Positions 32,598-44,760 of a stretch of DNA of 64,000 nucleotides are shown here, piece by piece. The notes under the pieces are model-generated. The model saw nothing but the letters and a program-made list of their open reading frames with translations, was not told where the DNA came from and made no database searches. Origin of the DNA: Spirochaeta thermophila DSM 6578. Its GTDB lineage: Bacteria; Spirochaetota; Spirochaetia; Winmispirales; Winmispiraceae. Location: assembly GCF_000184345.1 (NCBI RefSeq), contig NC_017583.1:2294001-2358000 (forward strand). Reading direction: 5' to 3'. How positions within the stretch are numbered: position 1 is the stretch's first letter; each line of letters starts with the position of its first letter. The position numbers and the translations under genes are program-made.

Positions 32598-33942
32598 GGG
32601 ATTGTCAAGGGGGAGTGTTGAAATTGAGCTGGAGCTGATAAGGGGTGCGTCTCCCCACCTCTTGTATCACCTGCATGCCCACCACGTAGAGGCCTACCAC
32701 CTCATCTGCATGGGCATGGCTCATATACCCAGGATACCTCCGTAGAAAGCTTCTCATGTGCCGAAACATGTTCTCCGCAAGGTTGCTCGTCCTCACCTTC
32801 TCCTTCCACTCATAGGGTAACTCCAGATAGGAGAAAAGCCGGTCCTTCCGCCACAGGAGGGAGGCCGTCATCCGGGGAGCCTTCGCCGCCCACTTCTTCA
32901 CGAATGCCTCCAACGCACGTGCTGCGTCCTCCTTCCCTCCTGCCTCAAAGAGCTTCCAGTACTCCGCTCGAAAAGCTCGCCTCTCCTTCTGGAGGTCTGC
33001 GTTCTTCCCCTTCCGTTCCCCCATGTCCTGCAGGAGCTTCTGCTCAAGCGTACCCTGCAGGTGCCAGAGGCATACCTGCTTCTTCGCCTCAGGATACACC
33101 GTCTCCACGGCCTGCCGGATCCCCTCAGCCTCATCGGCCACCACCAGCTCCACCTCATGAAGCCCTCGCTCATAGAGCCTGGTAAGGAGTCGCTCGTAGC
33201 TCGCCTGGTCCTCCTGCTCCGCAACGACCCAGTCGAGGAGCTCATGAGATCCGTCCTCCTTCACCCCCACGGCACTCAGGACAACCAGCTTCTTCTGACC
33301 CCTCCCACGCCTCTTTGCCCACACTCCATCCAGCACAAGGGCCTTCACTCCTCTAAGGGACCTCCTCCGCCACTGCTCCTTCTCCTCACGAAGACGCTTT
33401 ATGAGCCGCAGGAGTGTCTGCGGGTGAGCCTCGCCTATCCCCAGCTCCCGTAACAGGATGGCCCACGTCCGCGCGCTCATCCCTCCCACATACCCGAGAA
33501 GGAGCTGCTCGGCGAGGGCCACGAGCCTCTGCTCGTAGGTCACCAGCTTTACCTCCTTCCCCCCGCCGGTGCGAATGCGGGGCACGCGTACCTCCTCGAT
33601 CGGCCCCCAGGGGGTCTGCACGCTCTTCCACTTTCTGTAGCCGTACCGGTAGTACTGCCCTTTCTCAGGCTCCCCTCGTGCATATCGTGGTCGTCCTACT
33701 GCCTCCTCTCTCAGCGTCTCAAGGAGGTGTTCCAGGTACGTCTTGTAGGTGTGGCGCACCTCCTCCCGTAGCTGGTCTTCCACTTGTTTCATCAGATCAG
33801 AGAGGGTATACTGTGTCTCAATCAGTGTGCGTGTGTTACCACGCTTCATGGGGTATCTCCTCCTTGAAAAAAGGATTAGTGTGGTGGGAGATACCCCTTA
33901 TCTTTTTTCCCCGCCTTTTTCAACACTCGATGTTACAGTCCC
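32598..33942 (-). mobile_element. IS256-family insertion sequence, copy 2
   Basis: 1345 bases, the same length as copy 1, flanked by a perfect nine-base duplication. Ends are GGGATTGT (left) and GGGACTGT (right, reverse strand). It sits between the divergent def and tRNA-Cys promoters. Confidence 0.92.
32605..33849 (-). CDS. IS256-family transposase, copy 2
   Basis: 414 residues, intact, nearly identical to the copy at 23175. Catalytic segments ALVLDGVWAKRRGRG, VVADEAEGIRQAV and TSNLAENMFRHMR are all present. Nucleotide differences cluster around 33070-33200 and 33340-33360 and change only a few residues, so the copies have diverged somewhat or been partly exchanged. Confidence 0.95.
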   Translation of the reverse strand: MKRGNTRTLIETQYTLSDLMKQVEDQLREEVRHTYKTYLEHLLETLREEAVGRPRYARGEPEKGQYYRYGYRKWKSVQTPWGPIEEVRVPRIRTGGGKEVKLVTYEQRLVALAEQLLLGYVGGMSARTWAILLRELGIGEAHPQTLLRLIKRLREEKEQWRRRSLRGVKALVLDGVWAKRRGRGQKKLVVLSAVGVKEDGSHELLDWVVAEQEDQASYERLLTRLYERGLHEVELVVADEAEGIRQAVETVYPEAKKQVCLWHLQGTLEQKLLQDMGERKGKNADLQKERRAFRAEYWKLFEAGGKEDAARALEAFVKKWAAKAPRMTASLLWRKDRLFSYLELPYEWKEKVRTSNLAENMFRHMRSFLRRYPGYMSHAHADEVVGLYVVGMQVIQEVGRRTPYQLQLNFNTPP

Positions 33943-33987: not shown

Positions 33988-34059
33988 GGCGCCGTACCCA
34001 AGTGGTAAGGGAGGGGCCTGCAAAGCCCTTATTCGCCGGTTCGAATCCGGCCGGCGCCT
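33988..34059 (+). tRNA. tRNA-Cys (anticodon GCA)
   Basis: 72 bases. Acceptor stem GGCGCCG pairs with CGGCGCC, the anticodon loop is CTGCAAA with GCA at 34-36, and the T arm reads CCGG-TTCGAAT-CCGG. CCA is not encoded. A candidate promoter TGGACA-17-TAATAC lies at 33945-33973, with its -35 in the IS256 target duplication. T-rich sequence after the gene may terminate it. Confidence 0.95.
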
Positions 34060-34139
34060 CTTTTCATCTCCACGGACATGCCCCTGCAATCCGATAGAAA
34101 ACCCTTGCGCAGAGAGAAAATCTGATACATCATATACCC

Positions 34140-35132
34140 ATGCGGAAGCTCTTCTTCCTGCTTCTCCTCGTGTGCGTGATGGTGGCGGTCTTTCCCTCCT
34201 GCTCCCTCAACAAGATGATCACCCGGGCTGTGGTCTCTTCTCTCGGCACGGGGGGGGCCGATCCCTTCTCGACGGAGGAAGACCCTCAGCTCGTGGCAGA
34301 GGCATTACCCTTCGCCCTCAAACTCTACGAAACGCTCCTCCAGTCGGATCCCGACAACCGGGAGCTGCTCCTCACCCTTGCCCAGGGGTATGTCTCCTAT
34401 GCGAAGGCCTTCGTGGAGGAACCGGCCCGTAGACTTCCCCTCTCCTCGTACGCGGCACAGAAGAAGGCGTACCGGAGAGCGAGGCTCCTCTACCTCCGGG
34501 GGGCGCGTTACGCCCTCCACGCCCTGGAGGAGGCCCATCCTCGCGCCTTTGCCGAATGGGAAGGAGGGGACCTCTCGACCTTCCTCGGCACGGTACGGGA
34601 GGAGGACGTCGCCGCCCTCTACTGGGGGGCCGCGGGGCTCCTTTCAGCCATCTCCCTCGACCCGTCGGATCCGGAACTCTCGCTCTCGATACCCAAGGCC
34701 GTGAGCCTGGCTGCGACGATCCTGCTCTCCTTTCCCGATTCCCAGGAGGGGGCGGTCCACGAGATGTTCATCTCCCTCTATGGGGGCCTCCCGGAGGCCC
34801 TGTGGTGGGGACCGAACCCTCCGGAGCTCCTCGTGGAGGGTCTCCGCCGTTACTACGAGAGTGAAGGTCTGGCCGACGCGACTCCCGAGGGAAAGGCCCG
34901 CCACCACTTCGAGCGGGCGGTGGCCTTGAGCGGGGGGAAGAAGCTCTCCCCCTACATCACGTACGCGGAGAGCATCGTGTATCCGAGACAGGACAAGGAT
35001 ACCTACCGGAACCTGCTCGAGAGGGCGCTTTCCATACCTCCCGGCGACACACCGGAGCACGCCCTGGAGAACGCCGTTGCACGGGAGAAGGCGGAGTGGC
35101 TTCTCGAGACCCTCGACGACCGATTCTTCTAG
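34140..35132 (+). CDS. tatT: TatT-like lipoprotein with TPR repeats (TRAP-associated)
   Basis: A 330-residue lipoprotein. The signal ends in a lipobox with Cys21 (VFPSC). The mature part is alpha-helical with TPR-like repeats (LKLYETLLQSDPDNRELLLTLAQGYVSYA, then repeated A/L-rich helices). It matches the T component of TPAT transporters, best known as Tp0956 of Treponema pallidum, which trimerises around the binding protein. Followed directly by the binding protein and the membrane subunit. Confidence 0.85.
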   Translation: MRKLFFLLLLVCVMVAVFPSCSLNKMITRAVVSSLGTGGADPFSTEEDPQLVAEALPFALKLYETLLQSDPDNRELLLTLAQGYVSYAKAFVEEPARRLPLSSYAAQKKAYRRARLLYLRGARYALHALEEAHPRAFAEWEGGDLSTFLGTVREEDVAALYWGAAGLLSAISLDPSDPELSLSIPKAVSLAATILLSFPDSQEGAVHEMFISLYGGLPEALWWGPNPPELLVEGLRRYYESEGLADATPEGKARHHFERAVALSGGKKLSPYITYAESIVYPRQDKDTYRNLLERALSIPPGDTPEHALENAVAREKAEWLLETLDDRFF

Positions 35133-35146
35133 AAAAAGGAGTGCCT

Positions 35147-36139
35147 ATGCGACACCTGGTCAAGCTCTTCTTCCTCTTCCTGGGGATCCCTCTGTGGGCT
35201 CTCACCATCAAGGTGGCGAGTCTGGCGCCAGTAGGAACACCTTGGGACGAGGCCCTCAGAGAGGTGGCCCAAAAGTGGGCGGAGCTCTCGAACGGTGAGG
35301 TGGAGATGAAGATATATCCGGGAGGGATCGCAGGCGATGAGATCGACGTGATTCGAAAGATGAGGCTCGGCCAGCTGCAGGGCGCGGTTCTCACCTCGGT
35401 GGGTCTCAATAAGATTCACCCGGACATGATCACCATGGCGCTCCCCATGATCGCCCAGAGCGACGAGGAGGTCTCCTACCTCCTCGAGAAGATGGGTCCT
35501 CGCTGGGAAGGGCTTCTCGTCCAGAAGGGCTTCGTCCCCGTGGTGTGGCAGGTGGCGGGGTGGGTCAACTTCTTCACCAAGGTCCCGGCCTATACTCCTG
35601 ACGAACTGAAAAAACTCAAGCTACGCACCTACCCCGACGAGCCGGAGATGAACCAGACGTTCAAGGAGTTCGGATTCCACATCGTCCCCCTCACCCAGAA
35701 CGAGGTGCTCGCAGGACTCCAGACCGGTATCGTGGAGGCGGTGTACGCACCCCCCGTGCTGGTCGCTACGCTGCAGTGGTTCGCCCTCGCACCCCACTAC
35801 ACCACGCTCAAATTCGCACCGGTGGTGGGTGCGCTCGTGATAGAGGAACGTACCTGGAACCGGATCCCCGAACGCTACCGCGATCCCTTCAGGAGGGCGG
35901 CCGCCGAGGCGGCGGAGGCCCTCAACGACAAGGTGAAGGAGGTGGACGAGAAGGCACTTTCCATCATGAAACAGCACGGACTCGTCATACACGAGGCCAC
36001 CCAAGAGGAGATCGCCCAGTGGGAGGCCATAAGCAGGGAAGGGCTCGCCCGACTCGCCGGGACGCTCTTCTCCCGGGACATCTATGAACAGGTCATCCAC
36101 CACATAGAAGACTACAGGGCTGGCCATGAGGATCGATGA
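35147..36139 (+). CDS. tatP: TRAP transporter periplasmic binding protein TatP (DctP family)
   Basis: 330 residues with an N-terminal signal (LVKLFFLFLGIPLWA). DctP-family features include LAPVGTPWDEALREVAQKW at the mature start, the LRTYPDEPEMNQTFKEFG segment, which holds the usual Arg-containing ligand site region, and GIVEAVYAPPV. TRAP systems import acids using ion gradients rather than ATP; TPAT versions have been linked to hydrophobic ligands. AAAAAGGAG precedes the ATG at 35147. Confidence 0.9.
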   Translation: MRHLVKLFFLFLGIPLWALTIKVASLAPVGTPWDEALREVAQKWAELSNGEVEMKIYPGGIAGDEIDVIRKMRLGQLQGAVLTSVGLNKIHPDMITMALPMIAQSDEEVSYLLEKMGPRWEGLLVQKGFVPVVWQVAGWVNFFTKVPAYTPDELKKLKLRTYPDEPEMNQTFKEFGFHIVPLTQNEVLAGLQTGIVEAVYAPPVLVATLQWFALAPHYTTLKFAPVVGALVIEERTWNRIPERYRDPFRRAAAEAAEALNDKVKEVDEKALSIMKQHGLVIHEATQEEIAQWEAISREGLARLAGTLFSRDIYEQVIHHIEDYRAGHEDR

Positions 36140-38018
36140 GACTTCCTCCCGACACCTGCTTCACAGGGTCGAAACCATCCTGGGAGGAGGTGCGCTCCTC
36201 GTCCTCACCACGCTCCCTCTGCTTGAAATGGGGGCCCGTCTCCTCTTCTCCACCGGCATCCCGGGGAGCAGCGACTTCCTCCACCACCTGGTGATCTGGG
36301 TCACCTTTTTCGGTGCCATGATGGGGAGCAGGATGAAGAGTCATCTCTCCATCGCCTTCTTTGAGAGCATACTCCCCCGCAGGTGGAAGACCGTCCTCCT
36401 CGTCCTCATCTCCTGGTTCGCCGGCGTACTCACCACGGTGCTCGCCCTCAGCGCCGTATCCCACTATGTGCTCGCCTTCGACCCCCACGCTCACATAGAG
36501 GGGGTCCCCTTGAGAGCGATCACCTGGGTGATCCCCCTGGGATTCTCGGTGATCGCAGCGAGGTTCTTCCTTCGGGCACCCGTCTCCTCACCCTCGGCCC
36601 GCGCCCTCCTCATGGGGGCCGGACTGTGCACAGGTCTCGCCCTCGGCGCCCCCGCCGTCTCCAACCTCCTCTCCGCGGGCGGCCTGGAACACCCACTTCT
36701 CACCGCCGTCTCCGAGGCCATCGCGGCCCTCTCGGCGCGCCACGGGGTCTGGGTGGTCCTCGGCCTCGTCCTCCTCATCCTCCTGGGACTCCCCCTCTTC
36801 GTGGGCATCGCGGGGATCAGCCTCTTCCTCCTCCTCGGGAGCTGGGGCGTCCCCGAAGTGGTTCCGGACGAAATCTACACCCTCCTCACCGACACCCCGA
36901 TCCCCCCCATCCCGCTCTTCACCCTGGTGGGATTCCTCCTCTCGGCGAGCAAAGCCGGCGACAGGTTCATCGCCTTCTTCAGACGCCTCTTCCACCACCT
37001 TCCGGGAGGCGTGGCGATCGTGGCGATCCTCGTGTCGGCCTTCTTCACCACCTTCACCGGTGCCTCGGGCGTGGCCATCCTCGCCCTCGGTGGCGTGCTT
37101 TCCTATGTGATGATCCAGAGCAGACAGTATTCGCGGCCCTTCACCCACGGGTTGCTCACGGCCTCCGGGACCATAGGTCTGCTCTTTCCTCCCAGCCTCC
37201 CTATCATCATCTACGGCTCGGTGGCCCATGTGAGCATCAAGGACCTCTTCATCGGCGGATTCATCCCCGGTCTCATCCTGGTGGGGTCGCTCATCATCTA
37301 CAGCATCGTGTGGAGCCTGCGGCATCCGTCTCCCGAAGGCACGACCGGGAAAGAGAACAAGACCAGGGGAAGGCTGCTCGACGTCATATGGGAGGTGCTC
37401 CTCCCGCTCATCATCGTGGCGGGATTCTTCAGCGGCATCTTCACCTTGGTGGAGACCGCGGCCTTTTCGGTGGTCTACATCTTCATCGTGGAGGTCTTCA
37501 TCACGAAGGAGGTCTCCCTCAGGGAGGCGTGGAAGACCATCGAACGGGCCCTCCCCATCATCGGGGGGATCCTCCTGCTCCTGGGAGCGGCGAAGGCCCT
37601 CTCCTACTACATCGTCGACACCCAGTTCCCCCTCGTGCTCACCGCCTGGATGAAGGCGCACGTCGGTTCGAAGTATCTCTTCCTCCTCCTGGTGACGATC
37701 ATCCTCCTCATCACCGGGTGCCTCATGGACATCTTTTCGGCCATCATGATCGTCGCCCCGCTCCTCGTGCCCCTCTCGGAGGCCTACGACATCCACCCCG
37801 TCCACATGGGGGTGCTCTTCCTCGCCAACCTCGCCGTGGGATACCTCACCCCTCCGGTGGGACTCAACCTCTTCCTGGCCTCCTACAGGTTCGAGGAACA
37901 TCTCCTCTCCATATACAAGCAGGTGATCCCATTCTTCCTCGTCCTCTTCGCGGCGGTACTGCTCATCACCTATGTTCCGGCCCTCTCCCTCGGGCTGCTC
38001 CACCTCCTGGGAGGGTAG
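36126..38018 (+). CDS. tatQM: Fused TRAP transporter membrane subunit (DctQ-DctM)
   Basis: 630 residues, all membrane helices. About 1-170 corresponds to the small DctQ subunit; the rest is the large DctM subunit with typical segments LGLPLFVGIAGISLFLLLGSW, ASGTIGLLFPPSLP, and FLANLAVGYLTPPVGLNLF. Q and M are one polypeptide, as in some TRAP and TPAT systems. The start overlaps tatP by 14 bases, so the three genes form one unit. Confidence 0.93.
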   Translation: MRIDETSSRHLLHRVETILGGGALLVLTTLPLLEMGARLLFSTGIPGSSDFLHHLVIWVTFFGAMMGSRMKSHLSIAFFESILPRRWKTVLLVLISWFAGVLTTVLALSAVSHYVLAFDPHAHIEGVPLRAITWVIPLGFSVIAARFFLRAPVSSPSARALLMGAGLCTGLALGAPAVSNLLSAGGLEHPLLTAVSEAIAALSARHGVWVVLGLVLLILLGLPLFVGIAGISLFLLLGSWGVPEVVPDEIYTLLTDTPIPPIPLFTLVGFLLSASKAGDRFIAFFRRLFHHLPGGVAIVAILVSAFFTTFTGASGVAILALGGVLSYVMIQSRQYSRPFTHGLLTASGTIGLLFPPSLPIIIYGSVAHVSIKDLFIGGFIPGLILVGSLIIYSIVWSLRHPSPEGTTGKENKTRGRLLDVIWEVLLPLIIVAGFFSGIFTLVETAAFSVVYIFIVEVFITKEVSLREAWKTIERALPIIGGILLLLGAAKALSYYIVDTQFPLVLTAWMKAHVGSKYLFLLLVTIILLITGCLMDIFSAIMIVAPLLVPLSEAYDIHPVHMGVLFLANLAVGYLTPPVGLNLFLASYRFEEHLLSIYKQVIPFFLVLFAAVLLITYVPALSLGLLHLLGG

Positions 38019-38042: not shown

Positions 38043-38051
38043 TGCTAGGAT
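38043..38051 (+). promoter_or_regulatory. Extended -10 element, sphingoid-base genes (leaderless type)
   Basis: TGC-TAGGAT, then CAGGCT, then the ATG at 38058. Same arrangement and same TGC extension as at zwf and fumC. No Shine-Dalgarno is present. Confidence 0.5.
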
Positions 38052-38057
38052 CAGGCT

Positions 38058-38876
38058 ATGACATCGTTCGAAAACAGGTGGATCTACATCACGGGCGGCT
38101 CGAGCGGCATAGGCAAGGCCTGCGCCCGGCTCTTCGCCGGAGAAGGGGCGCACATCGTGCTCATCGCCCGGAACCAGGAGCGCCTCGCCCGAGCGAAGGA
38201 GGAGGTGGCCGCCGCCTGCAGGAGTCCGAACCAGGAGGTACTCACGCTCCCCCTCGACGTCTCACAGGGGGCTCGGATCCGCGAGACGCTCGGGAAGTGG
38301 ATGAGGGAACACCCCGCCCCGGACGTGCTCATCACCTCGGCCGGCGTGGCCTATCCCAACTACTTCGAACGGATCCCCGACGAGTGGTTCGAACGGACCA
38401 TCGACACCAACCTCAAGGGTACCTGGTACACGGTGCACTCGCTGTACCCCGCCATGAAGCAGAGGGGGAGCGGCTACATCGTGATGGTCTCCTCGATGGC
38501 AGGCTACATCGGTGTCTTCGGGTACACCGCCTACAGCGCCTCGAAGTTCGGCATCATCGGCTTCGCCTCGTGCCTCAGGAGCGAGGCGGAACTGCACGGG
38601 ATCACCGTGTCGGTCCTCTGCCCCCCGGACACCGACACCCCCCAGCTCCACGAGGAGGAGAAGACCAAGCCGCCCGAGACCAAGGCCGTGAGCGGTACGG
38701 TGAAACCCGTGCCGCCCCAGTTCGTGGCCCGGGAACTCCTCAAAGGGATGAGGAAGCGACGCTTTCTCATCACTCCGGGGCTCGAGGGCACACTCATAGA
38801 GAAGATCAACCGTCACTTCCCGAACCTCGTCTATACGATCAATCAGGCACAAGTGAAAAGAACAGCACACCACTAA
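38058..38876 (+). CDS. Short-chain dehydrogenase, 3-ketodihydrosphingosine reductase type
   Basis: 272 residues. The Rossmann start is TGGSSGIGKACARLFAGEG and the catalytic Tyr-Lys is in YSASK. The decisive segment is CPPDTDTPQLHEEEKTKP, followed by ETKAVSG, which is the hallmark of the KDSR/TSC10 group that reduces 3-ketosphinganine to sphinganine. The neighbour 12 bases downstream is a serine palmitoyltransferase-like enzyme, which supports the assignment. A general ketoreductase of fatty-acyl type is the main alternative. Confidence 0.8.
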   Translation: MTSFENRWIYITGGSSGIGKACARLFAGEGAHIVLIARNQERLARAKEEVAAACRSPNQEVLTLPLDVSQGARIRETLGKWMREHPAPDVLITSAGVAYPNYFERIPDEWFERTIDTNLKGTWYTVHSLYPAMKQRGSGYIVMVSSMAGYIGVFGYTAYSASKFGIIGFASCLRSEAELHGITVSVLCPPDTDTPQLHEEEKTKPPETKAVSGTVKPVPPQFVARELLKGMRKRRFLITPGLEGTLIEKINRHFPNLVYTINQAQVKRTAHH

Positions 38877-38888
38877 ACGGAGGAGCGC

Positions 38889-40103
38889 ATGGCACAGACC
38901 ACACGGACGGATATCTTCAAAAAGTGCTACGAGTTCAAGGAAGCAGAGAAGGCCAGGCAGGAGGGGTGGTATCCCTACTTCAGACCCATCAACGAGAACC
39001 ACGGCAACACGGTGATCATCGAAGGGAAGAAGTTCATCATGGCGGGGTCGAACAACTACCTGGGTCTGTCGCAGGACCCGAGGGTGATAGAGGCTGCGAA
39101 GAAGGCCGTGGAACGCTACGGGACGAGCTGCTCGGGCTCTCGATTCATGAACGGCACCCTCGCCCTCCACGAGGAACTCGAGCACCGCATCGCCAGGTTC
39201 GTCGGGAAAGAGGCGGCACTCTGCTTCACGACGGGATACCAGACCAACCTCGGCTCCATTTCGGCCCTCATGGAGACGAATGGCCATATCGTCACCGACA
39301 AGCTCAACCACGCCTCCATCATGGATGGGATCATGCTGGGCTCCGCCTTCACGCGCTGCCGGAACATACACCGGTTCAAGCACAACAACATGGACGATCT
39401 GAGGGAGGTGCTCTCCCGCATCCCGCCGGACGAGCCGGTGCTCATCGTGACCGACGGGGTCTTCAGCATGGAGGGGGACATCGCGAAGCTCCCCGAGATG
39501 AAGAAGATCGCCGACGAGTTCGGCGCCAGGATCTACCTCGACGAGGCCCACGCCATGGGAGTGCTGGGGAAGACCGGACGGGGGACCCTCGAGCACTACG
39601 GAGATCCCAACCTCGCGGACCTGGTGATGTGCACCTTTTCCAAGTCATTCGGCTCCATCGGCGGGTTCATCGCCGGGGATGCGGAGGTCATCGACTACAT
39701 CCAGCACCACTCCCGGCCGCTCATCTTCAGCGCGAGCATGCCGCCCGCCCAGATCGCCGCAGCCCTCGCGGCACTCGACATCATCGAAAAGGAGCCGGAA
39801 CGCGTACACAGGCTTCAGGAGATCGGCCGGAGGATGATCCAGGGGTTCAAGGACCTCGGGTTCGACGTGGGGGACACCGAGACGCCCATCGTTCCCCTCA
39901 TCATCGGCGACAACGAGAAGACCTTCAAGTTCTGGTACACCATGTACCAGGAAGGGCTCTACACCAACCCCGTGATCTCACCGGCGGTCCCGCCCAACCG
40001 GGCTCTCATCCGTACCTCGTTCATGGCAACCCACACCGACGAGGAGCTGGAGGCCACCCTGGAGATCGCAGGGAGGGTGGGCAAGGCCATGGGGCTCATC
40101 TAG
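38889..40103 (+). CDS. Serine palmitoyltransferase-like alpha-oxoamine synthase
   Basis: 404 residues, PLP-dependent. Features: YFRPINENHG start, GSNNYLGLSQDP, SGSRFMNGTLALHEELE, the cofactor-stacking NHASIMDG, LDEAHAMGVLG and the Schiff-base lysine in TFSKSFGSIGG. It condenses an amino acid with an acyl-CoA. Candidates are serine palmitoyltransferase, glycine C-acetyltransferase (Kbl) and BioF. Pairing with a KDSR-type reductase and the N-terminal YPYFRxI pattern favour serine palmitoyltransferase. RBS is GGAGGAG. Confidence 0.8.
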   Translation: MAQTTRTDIFKKCYEFKEAEKARQEGWYPYFRPINENHGNTVIIEGKKFIMAGSNNYLGLSQDPRVIEAAKKAVERYGTSCSGSRFMNGTLALHEELEHRIARFVGKEAALCFTTGYQTNLGSISALMETNGHIVTDKLNHASIMDGIMLGSAFTRCRNIHRFKHNNMDDLREVLSRIPPDEPVLIVTDGVFSMEGDIAKLPEMKKIADEFGARIYLDEAHAMGVLGKTGRGTLEHYGDPNLADLVMCTFSKSFGSIGGFIAGDAEVIDYIQHHSRPLIFSASMPPAQIAAALAALDIIEKEPERVHRLQEIGRRMIQGFKDLGFDVGDTETPIVPLIIGDNEKTFKFWYTMYQEGLYTNPVISPAVPPNRALIRTSFMATHTDEELEATLEIAGRVGKAMGLI

Positions 40104-40137
40104 CCGAAGGAGAACACCAGACACGTCGTGAAAACCG

Positions 40138-40167
40138 CACACCGTCCCGGCCGGGACGGTGTGTTTC
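40138..40167. terminator. Bidirectional terminator
   Basis: A perfect 26-base palindrome, CACACCGTCCCGG followed by its complement (40138-40163), with TTT on the right and AAAA just to the left. It lies between converging genes. Confidence 0.85.
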
Positions 40168-40930
40168 ATGTTCGGCCCGCCTCGGAAGACCCCCTCGCGA
40201 GGAGATAGCGCACCTGTCCTTCCTTGGTGAGGGGGATGATCACATCTCGATAGAACGAGAGGATGAATTCGGGATCAACCACCTTCCGGATCCGCCTGTC
40301 CACCTTTGACTGGAGCCAGTCAGCCTTCTCCCGCACGCGGGCGAGGATCCGCTGTTCCACTTCGGGCCTGGAGAGGAGGGCGAGGACCGCCTCCCGATCG
40401 CCCTTCTCGATGAGGGGTCGATAGAGGGCCGCATCTTTCCGATACTTGGCCTCGGCCACGAAGTACGAACCGAAGTGCACCCTTCGTGAGATGGCCTGAA
40501 GCACCATCACGTCATGCTCCACACTCGAACCATACTGGCCGTCATCCCCTGGAGGACAGAACGAAGGGATGGCGGCGAGGTAGGCCTCCACGATCCGGGG
40601 CATGAGATTGACGGTGTCGTAGTCGTCCACCCCCAGACCGTAGTCCGGAAGGATGACCTTTCTCCTGGGCGCGGGGAGATCCCGGTAGAAGGGGCGCTCC
40701 TCGGGCACACAGAAGCGCCCGAATACCGCGTCCATCTCCTCCTGGTATCTGAGGCGCAATTCGAACAGAGAGGCCTCCCCACCTCCCTCGAAGCCGCTCT
40801 TCCCCTTCTCGTAGGCCATCCTGTTCTCGTGGAACTGGGCCCTGTCCAGGAAACGAGCGATGATCGTCTCCTCGAGGCCCGAGAGCCGGGCCGCGATGAG
40901 GTCCACGTCGAACGAGATGGTCGGGACCAT
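40166..40930 (-). CDS. Chorismate mutase, eukaryotic (AroQ-beta) type
   Basis: 254 residues that align along their whole length with yeast and plant chorismate mutases rather than the 90-residue bacterial AroQ. Conserved stretches are LEETIIARFLDRAQF near the start, SSVEHDVMVLQAISRRVHFG in the middle, VAEAKYRKD, and FYRDVIIPLTKEGQVRYLL at the end. The enzyme converts chorismate to prephenate for Phe and Tyr. Eukaryotic relatives are allosteric dimers controlled by Trp and Tyr; whether this one is cannot be read here. ATG at 40930 has GGTGAGG upstream. Confidence 0.85.
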   Translation of the reverse strand: MVPTISFDVDLIAARLSGLEETIIARFLDRAQFHENRMAYEKGKSGFEGGGEASLFELRLRYQEEMDAVFGRFCVPEERPFYRDLPAPRRKVILPDYGLGVDDYDTVNLMPRIVEAYLAAIPSFCPPGDDGQYGSSVEHDVMVLQAISRRVHFGSYFVAEAKYRKDAALYRPLIEKGDREAVLALLSRPEVEQRILARVREKADWLQSKVDRRIRKVVDPEFILSFYRDVIIPLTKEGQVRYLLARGSSEAGRT

Positions 40931-40937
40931 AGACACC

Positions 40938-43781: not shown

Positions 43782-43995
43782 ACGTCGCTCCTCGTAAGGA
43801 TGAATATTTATGCATACCTTGTAGCACCTTTGAGGAACCTTTTCAAGGGCATCCGGTGATCGATAGTCCACACTTTTTCGTATTTTATTCCCAAAAAAAG
43901 AGATAATTATTCAAACCCCCAGCCGAAAACGCTCACTTTACTTTTCGGCCCCATTGATCTACACTTTTCAATAGCCACAAGAAAAAGGAGTGAGC

Positions 43996-44760
43996 ATGAT
44001 ACGGTACTACCTTTCCATCTTCCCCACGGAGGGACTCATCGCATCACAGCTTTCACCCGAGGACTTCGGGGCCTACATGGCCACCGGGACGAGGAAAGGG
44101 GCCTACGAGGGAATCATGTTCATCGAAGTGGAGGGCGAATTCGGCAGTTTCTTCGACTGGGAGTACGCACGGAAGCGGTGTGTCCCCCATCCCAACGGGG
44201 AACCCAAGCACTCGGTGTACCTGGGAGTCTACAGAGTGCTCGAGCACGTCCCCCTCGAGAGCTTGAAGGATCTCTACCTCACCACCCGTGATGGTCGTAC
44301 CCTCAAGTTGCAACAGGCTCCCTATCGCCCCGGTGCACCACGATCGTACTACCTCTACCAGGAACTCTGTCCCATCACCCCCCTGGTGGTGAGCTCCCTC
44401 CCTCCCGGAGATTTCGCCGCCAAGATCTCCGACGGCTCGAGCAAGATCTACGTCCCCACCATCGCCTTCGCAGACATCAAGACCATCGACTTCGACCACC
44501 CCGAGGAGACCGGGAACATAGGGGCGATCTACGACAGGAACATCGAACACCTCGAGGACTGCATCAAAACCGTGGTGGAGAACAAAGAGAAACCCACCAA
44601 GACCATCGAACGGTCCCACATCGGGTCGTTCTCCTACCAGATCATCAACACCGGTGTGTACGTGGGGAACAAGGACGGGATCGTCTTCTACCCCATGAAA
44701 TCGGTGGACGAACTGCGCCGTCACCACTACGACTGGGCGAAATCGGCTCTCATCATCTAG
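43996..44760 (+). CDS. Conserved protein of unknown function
   Basis: 254 residues; I do not recognise the family. It is soluble with no signal peptide, mixed alpha/beta and rich in aromatic residues. It begins MIRYYLSIFPTEGLIASQLSPEDFG, contains GAYEGIMFIEVEG and FADIKTIDFDHPEETGNIGA, and ends YPMKSVDELRRHHYDWAKSALII. The ATG at 43996 follows AAAAAGGAG. hflX starts 13 bases later, so the two are probably co-transcribed. Confidence 0.7.
   Translation: MIRYYLSIFPTEGLIASQLSPEDFGAYMATGTRKGAYEGIMFIEVEGEFGSFFDWEYARKRCVPHPNGEPKHSVYLGVYRVLEHVPLESLKDLYLTTRDGRTLKLQQAPYRPGAPRSYYLYQELCPITPLVVSSLPPGDFAAKISDGSSKIYVPTIAFADIKTIDFDHPEETGNIGAIYDRNIEHLEDCIKTVVENKEKPTKTIERSHIGSFSYQIINTGVYVGNKDGIVFYPMKSVDELRRHHYDWAKSALII

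Follow-up and report, generated by a model that had tools for sequence, protein, structure and literature searches.

Sphingolipids are fats familiar mainly from animals and fungi. The eukaryotic pathway runs from serine palmitoyltransferase (SPT) through the 3-ketosphinganine reductase KDSR (the fungal TSC10, PDB 8jat) to a ceramide synthase, CerS. Known bacterial ceramide routes, as PMC9386255 presents them, pair SPT with the ceramide synthase bCerS and, in Caulobacter, also with CerR. The pathway of Caulobacter and E. coli BL21 (spt, acpR, aasR, cerR, bCerS) is described as using an epimerase-like CerR and an acyltransferase of the bCerS/YghO family; in E. coli BL21(DE3), one locus holds spt, ACP, epimerase and yghO genes. 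Bacteroides thetaiotaomicron is reported to have an SPT (BT_0870) and a KDSR (BT_0972) encoded by unlinked genes, the SDR reducing 3-ketosphinganine before acylation (PMC9278070). The Pseudomonas SgaABC system clusters an SPT-type enzyme with a KDSR homologue, and its chain is supplied by a polyketide synthase cluster, according to PMC12134224.

Here, we analyzed a window of 64,000 nucleotides (2294001-2358000) from Spirochaeta thermophila DSM 6578, whose genome is a single contig of 2,560,222 bases rated 100% complete. It carries a KDSR-type reductase gene directly followed by an SPT-like gene. The locus has the SPT first step in common with the Caulobacter and E. coli BL21 pathway, but no bCerS was found in its genome. 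Its SPT is of the same clade type as that of B. thetaiotaomicron, whereas the two genes are adjacent here. It clusters the same two enzyme types as SgaABC, where the chain comes from a polyketide synthase cluster. With the eukaryotic pathway it shares the KDSR segment E..TKP..TK, but the SPT is of bacterial type and no LAG1-type ceramide synthase was found. Three features are unusual: the KDSR is of eukaryotic type, the single-contig genome is missing the known ceramide synthases, and a transporter stands in front. Among the matches listed in our literature searches, none was a paper dealing with sphingolipids in free-living spirochaetes or in Spirochaeta thermophila.

The two genes lie head to tail, separated by 12 nt, just as a sequence-only reading of this DNA had described them. 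That reading began the first gene at 38043; the open reading frame is real, and its ATG lies 15 nt further downstream. It had also taken the DNA to be from a spirochaete, which agrees with the named Spirochaetes records closest to it in our SPT tree. Features of the locus are listed in Table 1.

Table 1. Features in and around the KDSR-SPT gene pair, in window coordinates
Feature	Position	Strand	Remarks
ORF resembling IS256/Mutator-type transposase	32605-33849	-	Judged by reading the sequence
tRNA-Cys (gca)	33988-34060		Just upstream of TatT
TatT-like T component, TPAT (TRAP) transporter	34140..35132	+	Pfam TAtT 8e-71; Tp0956 match
TatP-like periplasmic binding protein	35096..36139	+	Start may be ATG at 35147
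Fused DctQM membrane component	36126..38018	+	Pfam DctQ and DctM
KDSR-type 3-ketosphinganine reductase (SDR)	38058..38876	+	ATG start, 272 aa
Ribosome-binding-like GGAGGAG, between KDSR and SPT	38879..38885	+	Sequence
SPT-like alpha-oxoamine synthase	38889..40103	+	ATG start, 404 aa
Terminator-like hairpin, 12 pairs, 33 nt past SPT stop	40137..40164	+	Pattern scan; T-poor tail
Chorismate-mutase protein, convergent with SPT	40166-40936	-	Plant/yeast-type model 165.3 bits vs cut-off 170.9
256-aa ORF	43990-44760	+	No match in Pfam or NCBIfam

The best PDB matches of the SPT-like protein are the Sphingobacterium SPT entries 8guh and 3a2b (E ~7e-124, 417 bits), with Kbl (1fc4) at 232 bits, BioF at 212 and cysteate-C-fatty acyltransferase at 209 (208.8). 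The top NCBIfam model is NF047600 (Bacteroidota SPT) at 517.8 bits, followed by BioF at 378.8 and the best Kbl model at 371.2. Since 517.8 bits falls short of the curated cut-off of 640, we file the protein as SPT-like and expect it to work like an SPT. In a 79-row tree, it sits among 15 spirochaete rows that form a starred clade, nested in a 63-row clade (SH-aLRT 99), although this was a quick tree with several long rows, so single deep branches should be read with caution. The 63-row clade includes Bacteroidota SPTs (such as those of a Sphingobacterium, Bacteroides and Porphyromonas) as well as the SPT annotated in E. coli BL21; outside it lie HemA and the rows for Kbl (three) and BioF (two). 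A phylogeny against SPT, Kbl and BioF had been proposed as a check on this gene, and it gave no placement with glycine C-acetyltransferase. The only other alpha-oxoamine synthase of the genome is 31% identical to the SPT and groups with a BioF. Clade, best PDB match and top NCBIfam model thus agree with the original assignment, and the data support a predicted SPT-clade alpha-oxoamine synthase rather than Kbl, BioF or HemA.

Residues N55, S84, H141, S193, D218, H221, T249, S251 and K252 are conserved in the protein. R375, which we take to have a role in SPT, is present as well. For the S. multivorum SPT, PMC10196870 names N52, S81, H138, S185, D210, A212, H213, T241, S243 and K244 as residues for PLP and L-Ser, and by residue mapping all ten are kept here. 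Departures from the S. multivorum enzyme are S82 in place of Ala79, I279 in place of Met271, and C248 in place of the G of GTFSKS.

The KDSR protein carries the SDR cofactor motif TGGSSGIG together with R38 and the catalytic residues S146, Y159 and K163; R38 suggests NADPH as the cofactor. The segments PPDTDTP (residues 189-195) and KTKP (202-205), which had first marked the gene as a KDSR, are both in place, and we take them to be similar to human KDSR. The best single-sequence PDB match is TSC10, the fungal 3-ketosphinganine reductase (4e-31), which shares the segment noted above. With a profile of 16 KDSR relatives (A3), however, TSC10 ranks only fifth among 716 PDB sequences. The PDB ranking is thus weak when taken by itself, and SDRs are hard to assign. 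The same profile gives 6.1e-125 for the KDSR here vs 4.4e-35 for the best SDR match in a Bacteroides acidifaciens genome, which, unlike that of S. thermophila, has bCerS.

TSC10, the one eukaryotic sequence included and on a long branch, forms a 17-row clade with 16 bacterial KDSRs in two trees (support 100/99 and 99/99) and falls in the bacterial KDSR clade. Ten SDRs that adjoin SPT in Bacteroidota, Bacillota and Mycoplasmatota stand apart from this clade and have no PPDTDTP; L254 and L249, which offered no usable ORF, were left out of the SDR tree. Grouping TSC10 with these ten SDRs was rejected in a topology test (p-AU 0.0125), and a position immediately outside the 16 bacterial KDSRs was not (p-AU 0.113). 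The grouping with TSC10 bears on the origin of eukaryotic KDSR. For CerR, our search of the genome returned only partial epimerase matches at the N-terminus, about 112 residues long, the best at 3.7e-12 over residues 3-114 of 304. Clade and SDR residues support a putative KDSR-type SDR and not CerR, as had been proposed. Separately, in L035, L036, L037, L038, L041 and L050 the KDSR with PPDTDTP comes with another SDR, which bears TGAAGGIG and stands away from SPT.

Bacterial sphingolipids had been described in the sequence-only reading as known from a few groups; SPT-like genes prove more widespread than this implied. An SPT-family match at 1e-60 is present in 144 of 392 Spirochaetota genomes, and 59 have a strong match (E <= 1.2e-107), a count that omits three split matches (G028, G057, G162). 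SPT-like genes have been reported in 40 phyla, according to PMC11334938. KDSR is found at 1e-40 in 20 of the 59 genomes and the ceramide-synthase family at 1e-15 in 46. The SPT-KDSR partnership is therefore not obligatory, as 39 of the 59 have no KDSR at E <= 1e-40. Over all 392 genomes the odds ratio for co-occurrence with SPT is 13.7 for KDSR (E <= 1e-60) and 18.7 for ceramide synthase, and because the genomes are related, the p-values overstate.

In nine of the 20 Spirochaetota genomes having both (S. thermophila, which is G000, and G006, G138, G262, G255, G328, G369, G375 and G087), and also in the Chloroflexota loci L113, L115 and L116, KDSR immediately precedes SPT on the same strand. 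The same order and strand across homologues argue that the adjacency is not chance. A KDSR next to SPT, which had been flagged as notable, is thus real but not unique, since it recurs in both phyla. Among the best 80 loci from named records, a KDSR-like SDR stands within 400 nt of SPT in 27 and a ceramide-synthase-family gene in 23; none has both at that distance and 30 have neither. Ceramide synthase, KDSR and SPT stand in a row in L103 (a Spirochaetes MAG), G255 and G087.

A profile of the bCerS (YghO/CC_1154) family, A2, in which one sequence occurs twice (L065 and L083), found no match at E <= 10 in S. thermophila or in G006, G138, G262, G328, G280 and G056; the control genomes G255 and G087 gave matches of about 1e-147 or better. 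These seven come from the 13 SPT genomes with no bCerS at 1e-15, the retest leaving out G186, G207, G317, G325, G366 and G391, with G186 and G207 being incomplete genomes. Named loci led us to 14 other genomes with SPT, and 13 of these match bCerS at 1e-87 or better (among them Bacteroides, Porphyromonas, Dysgonomonas, Sphingobacterium, Mucilaginibacter and Corallococcus); the lone exception is a Clostridium MAG. The LAG1-type ceramide synthase family (PF03798) has no match in the S. thermophila genome. Judged by homology, then, the first two steps appear to be present and none of the known third-step enzymes searched for is detectable, and since no ceramide synthase was found we do not predict a finished sphingolipid. 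In G262 and G328, the genes around the pair, read by eye from the sequence, revealed no evident acyltransferase.

We also considered a 375-aa GNAT-like gene that adjoins SPT in several spirochaetes as a new ceramide synthase. Its product and E. coli YghO share 28% identity over 369 aa (3e-47), and PMC9386255 describes YghO as an aca N-acyltransferase homologous to Caulobacter CC_1154. Being homologous to YghO, it is not a new ceramide synthase but belongs to the bCerS family already known, which is missing in S. thermophila. PF04339 as the bCerS family was a wrong lead, as YghO matches no Pfam family; PF04339 has no match in the S. thermophila genome, and this absence says nothing about bCerS. 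The E. coli K-12 yghO gene (L187:9044-10216) carries the annotation of a putative DNA-binding transcriptional regulator, yet it is homologous to the bCerS family.

Gene order, homology, catalytic residues, the SPT-clade placement and the recurrence of the pair are direct observations, and on this footing the two genes most probably form a sphingoid-base module leading from 3-ketosphinganine, made by SPT, to sphinganine, made by the KDSR-type SDR. SPT would condense L-serine with a long-chain acyl thioester, using PLP on K252, with decarboxylation and release of CoA or ACP. The SDR would reduce the ketone of 3-ketosphinganine with NADPH at S146-Y159-K163. Reduction would come before acylation, as in eukaryotes, an order that we infer, as we do the substrates and products. 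The pair would also be a simple source of SPT and KDSR, and one from a thermophile if the sequence-only reading is right.

Sphinganine is the most likely predicted product, and we weighed three alternatives. It is unlikely that the synthase takes an amino acid other than serine (such as alanine, glycine or cysteate) and that the pair yields 1-deoxy bases, capnine-like or other amino-alcohol lipids. The S. multivorum SPT is reported to accept alanine and glycine too (PMC10196870), Ser82 here replaces its Ala79 near the substrate side chain, and a genome with no ceramide synthase found would fit; yet all residues whose side chains are named as contacting PLP or L-Ser are conserved, and the cysteate-C-fatty acyltransferase match has half the bits of SPT (208.8 vs 417). 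We consider it very improbable that the two genes are what remains of a decayed pathway that lost its ceramide synthase and whose products have no use: bCerS is missing in the seven retested genomes vs present in 46 of 59 SPT genomes, but both ORFs are intact and retain their catalytic residues, and three lineages lacking bCerS (family f1, G262 of f7 and G328 of f17) have kept the pair whole, with SPTs 66-79% identical. That the second gene is glycine C-acetyltransferase (Kbl) or BioF beside an unrelated SDR, with no sphingoid base made, can be dismissed as similarly improbable: these enzymes share the superfamily and their models score 371-379 bits, but HMM scores (the SPT model is ~140 bits higher) and the tree, which sets Kbl and BioF apart, reject this, no threonine dehydrogenase or biotin genes occur among the scanned neighbours, and the KDSR pairing recurs in other genomes.

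For sphinganine as the product, the failure to detect bCerS, CerR or a LAG1-type synthase in a single-contig genome points to another N-acylating enzyme or to unacylated use. Of the two, N-acylation by some other enzyme would be the more likely. In this genome, SPT with a eukaryote-type KDSR and neither bCerS nor CerR leads one to expect either that the acyltransferase is a new one or that the sphingoid lipid is no ceramide.

Upstream of the pair stand genes for TatT, TatP and a fused DctQM, which make up a TPAT transporter with the same three components as the T. pallidum TPAT (TatT/TatP(T)/TatQM, Tp0956/Tp0957). The only PDB sequence match of the TatT-like protein is TatT Tp0956 (8.1e-40), and the best matches of the TatP-like protein are Tp33 / TatP(T) Tp0957 (3e-33 to 5e-33). 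The DctQM stop lies 39 nt upstream of KDSR, and a pattern scan, which is weak evidence, found no promoter-like site between them; TatT to SPT probably form one transcription unit, judging from the layout. G006 and G138 share the five-gene order TatT-TatP-DctQM-KDSR-SPT, the gaps being wider in G138. Of the 392 genomes, 129 have TatT, and it stands near SPT in just three of them, S. thermophila, G006 and G138, all of family f1. By comparing the lists by eye, we rejected a TPAT-SPT linkage as a general rule, as among the 392 genomes it is confined to this family, and the link may be a chance of neighbourhood.

The review PMC5812351 proposes hydrophobic molecules as the cargo of TPAT systems, that of T. 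pallidum included. We tentatively suggest, as a less than likely extension, that sphinganine made with no known ceramide route feeds an undescribed N-acyltransferase or an unacylated lipid, and that a co-transcribed TPAT moves a long-chain base or acyl precursor between membranes. If true, this would give the orphan TPAT family a lipid substrate; the locus offers a genetic hint toward the ligand of these transporters, which T. pallidum also has.

SPT genes were also seen in other settings. In the Acholeplasmataceae (wall-less bacteria) loci L147 and L153, SPT is followed 24-51 nt later by an SDR, and the L153 genome has a bCerS-family gene. L218 and L219 (G042 and G166) hold SPT paralogues, ~40% identical, that adjoin a bCerS-family gene and lie outside the main SPT clade; the paralogue of G042 is also near a KDSR.
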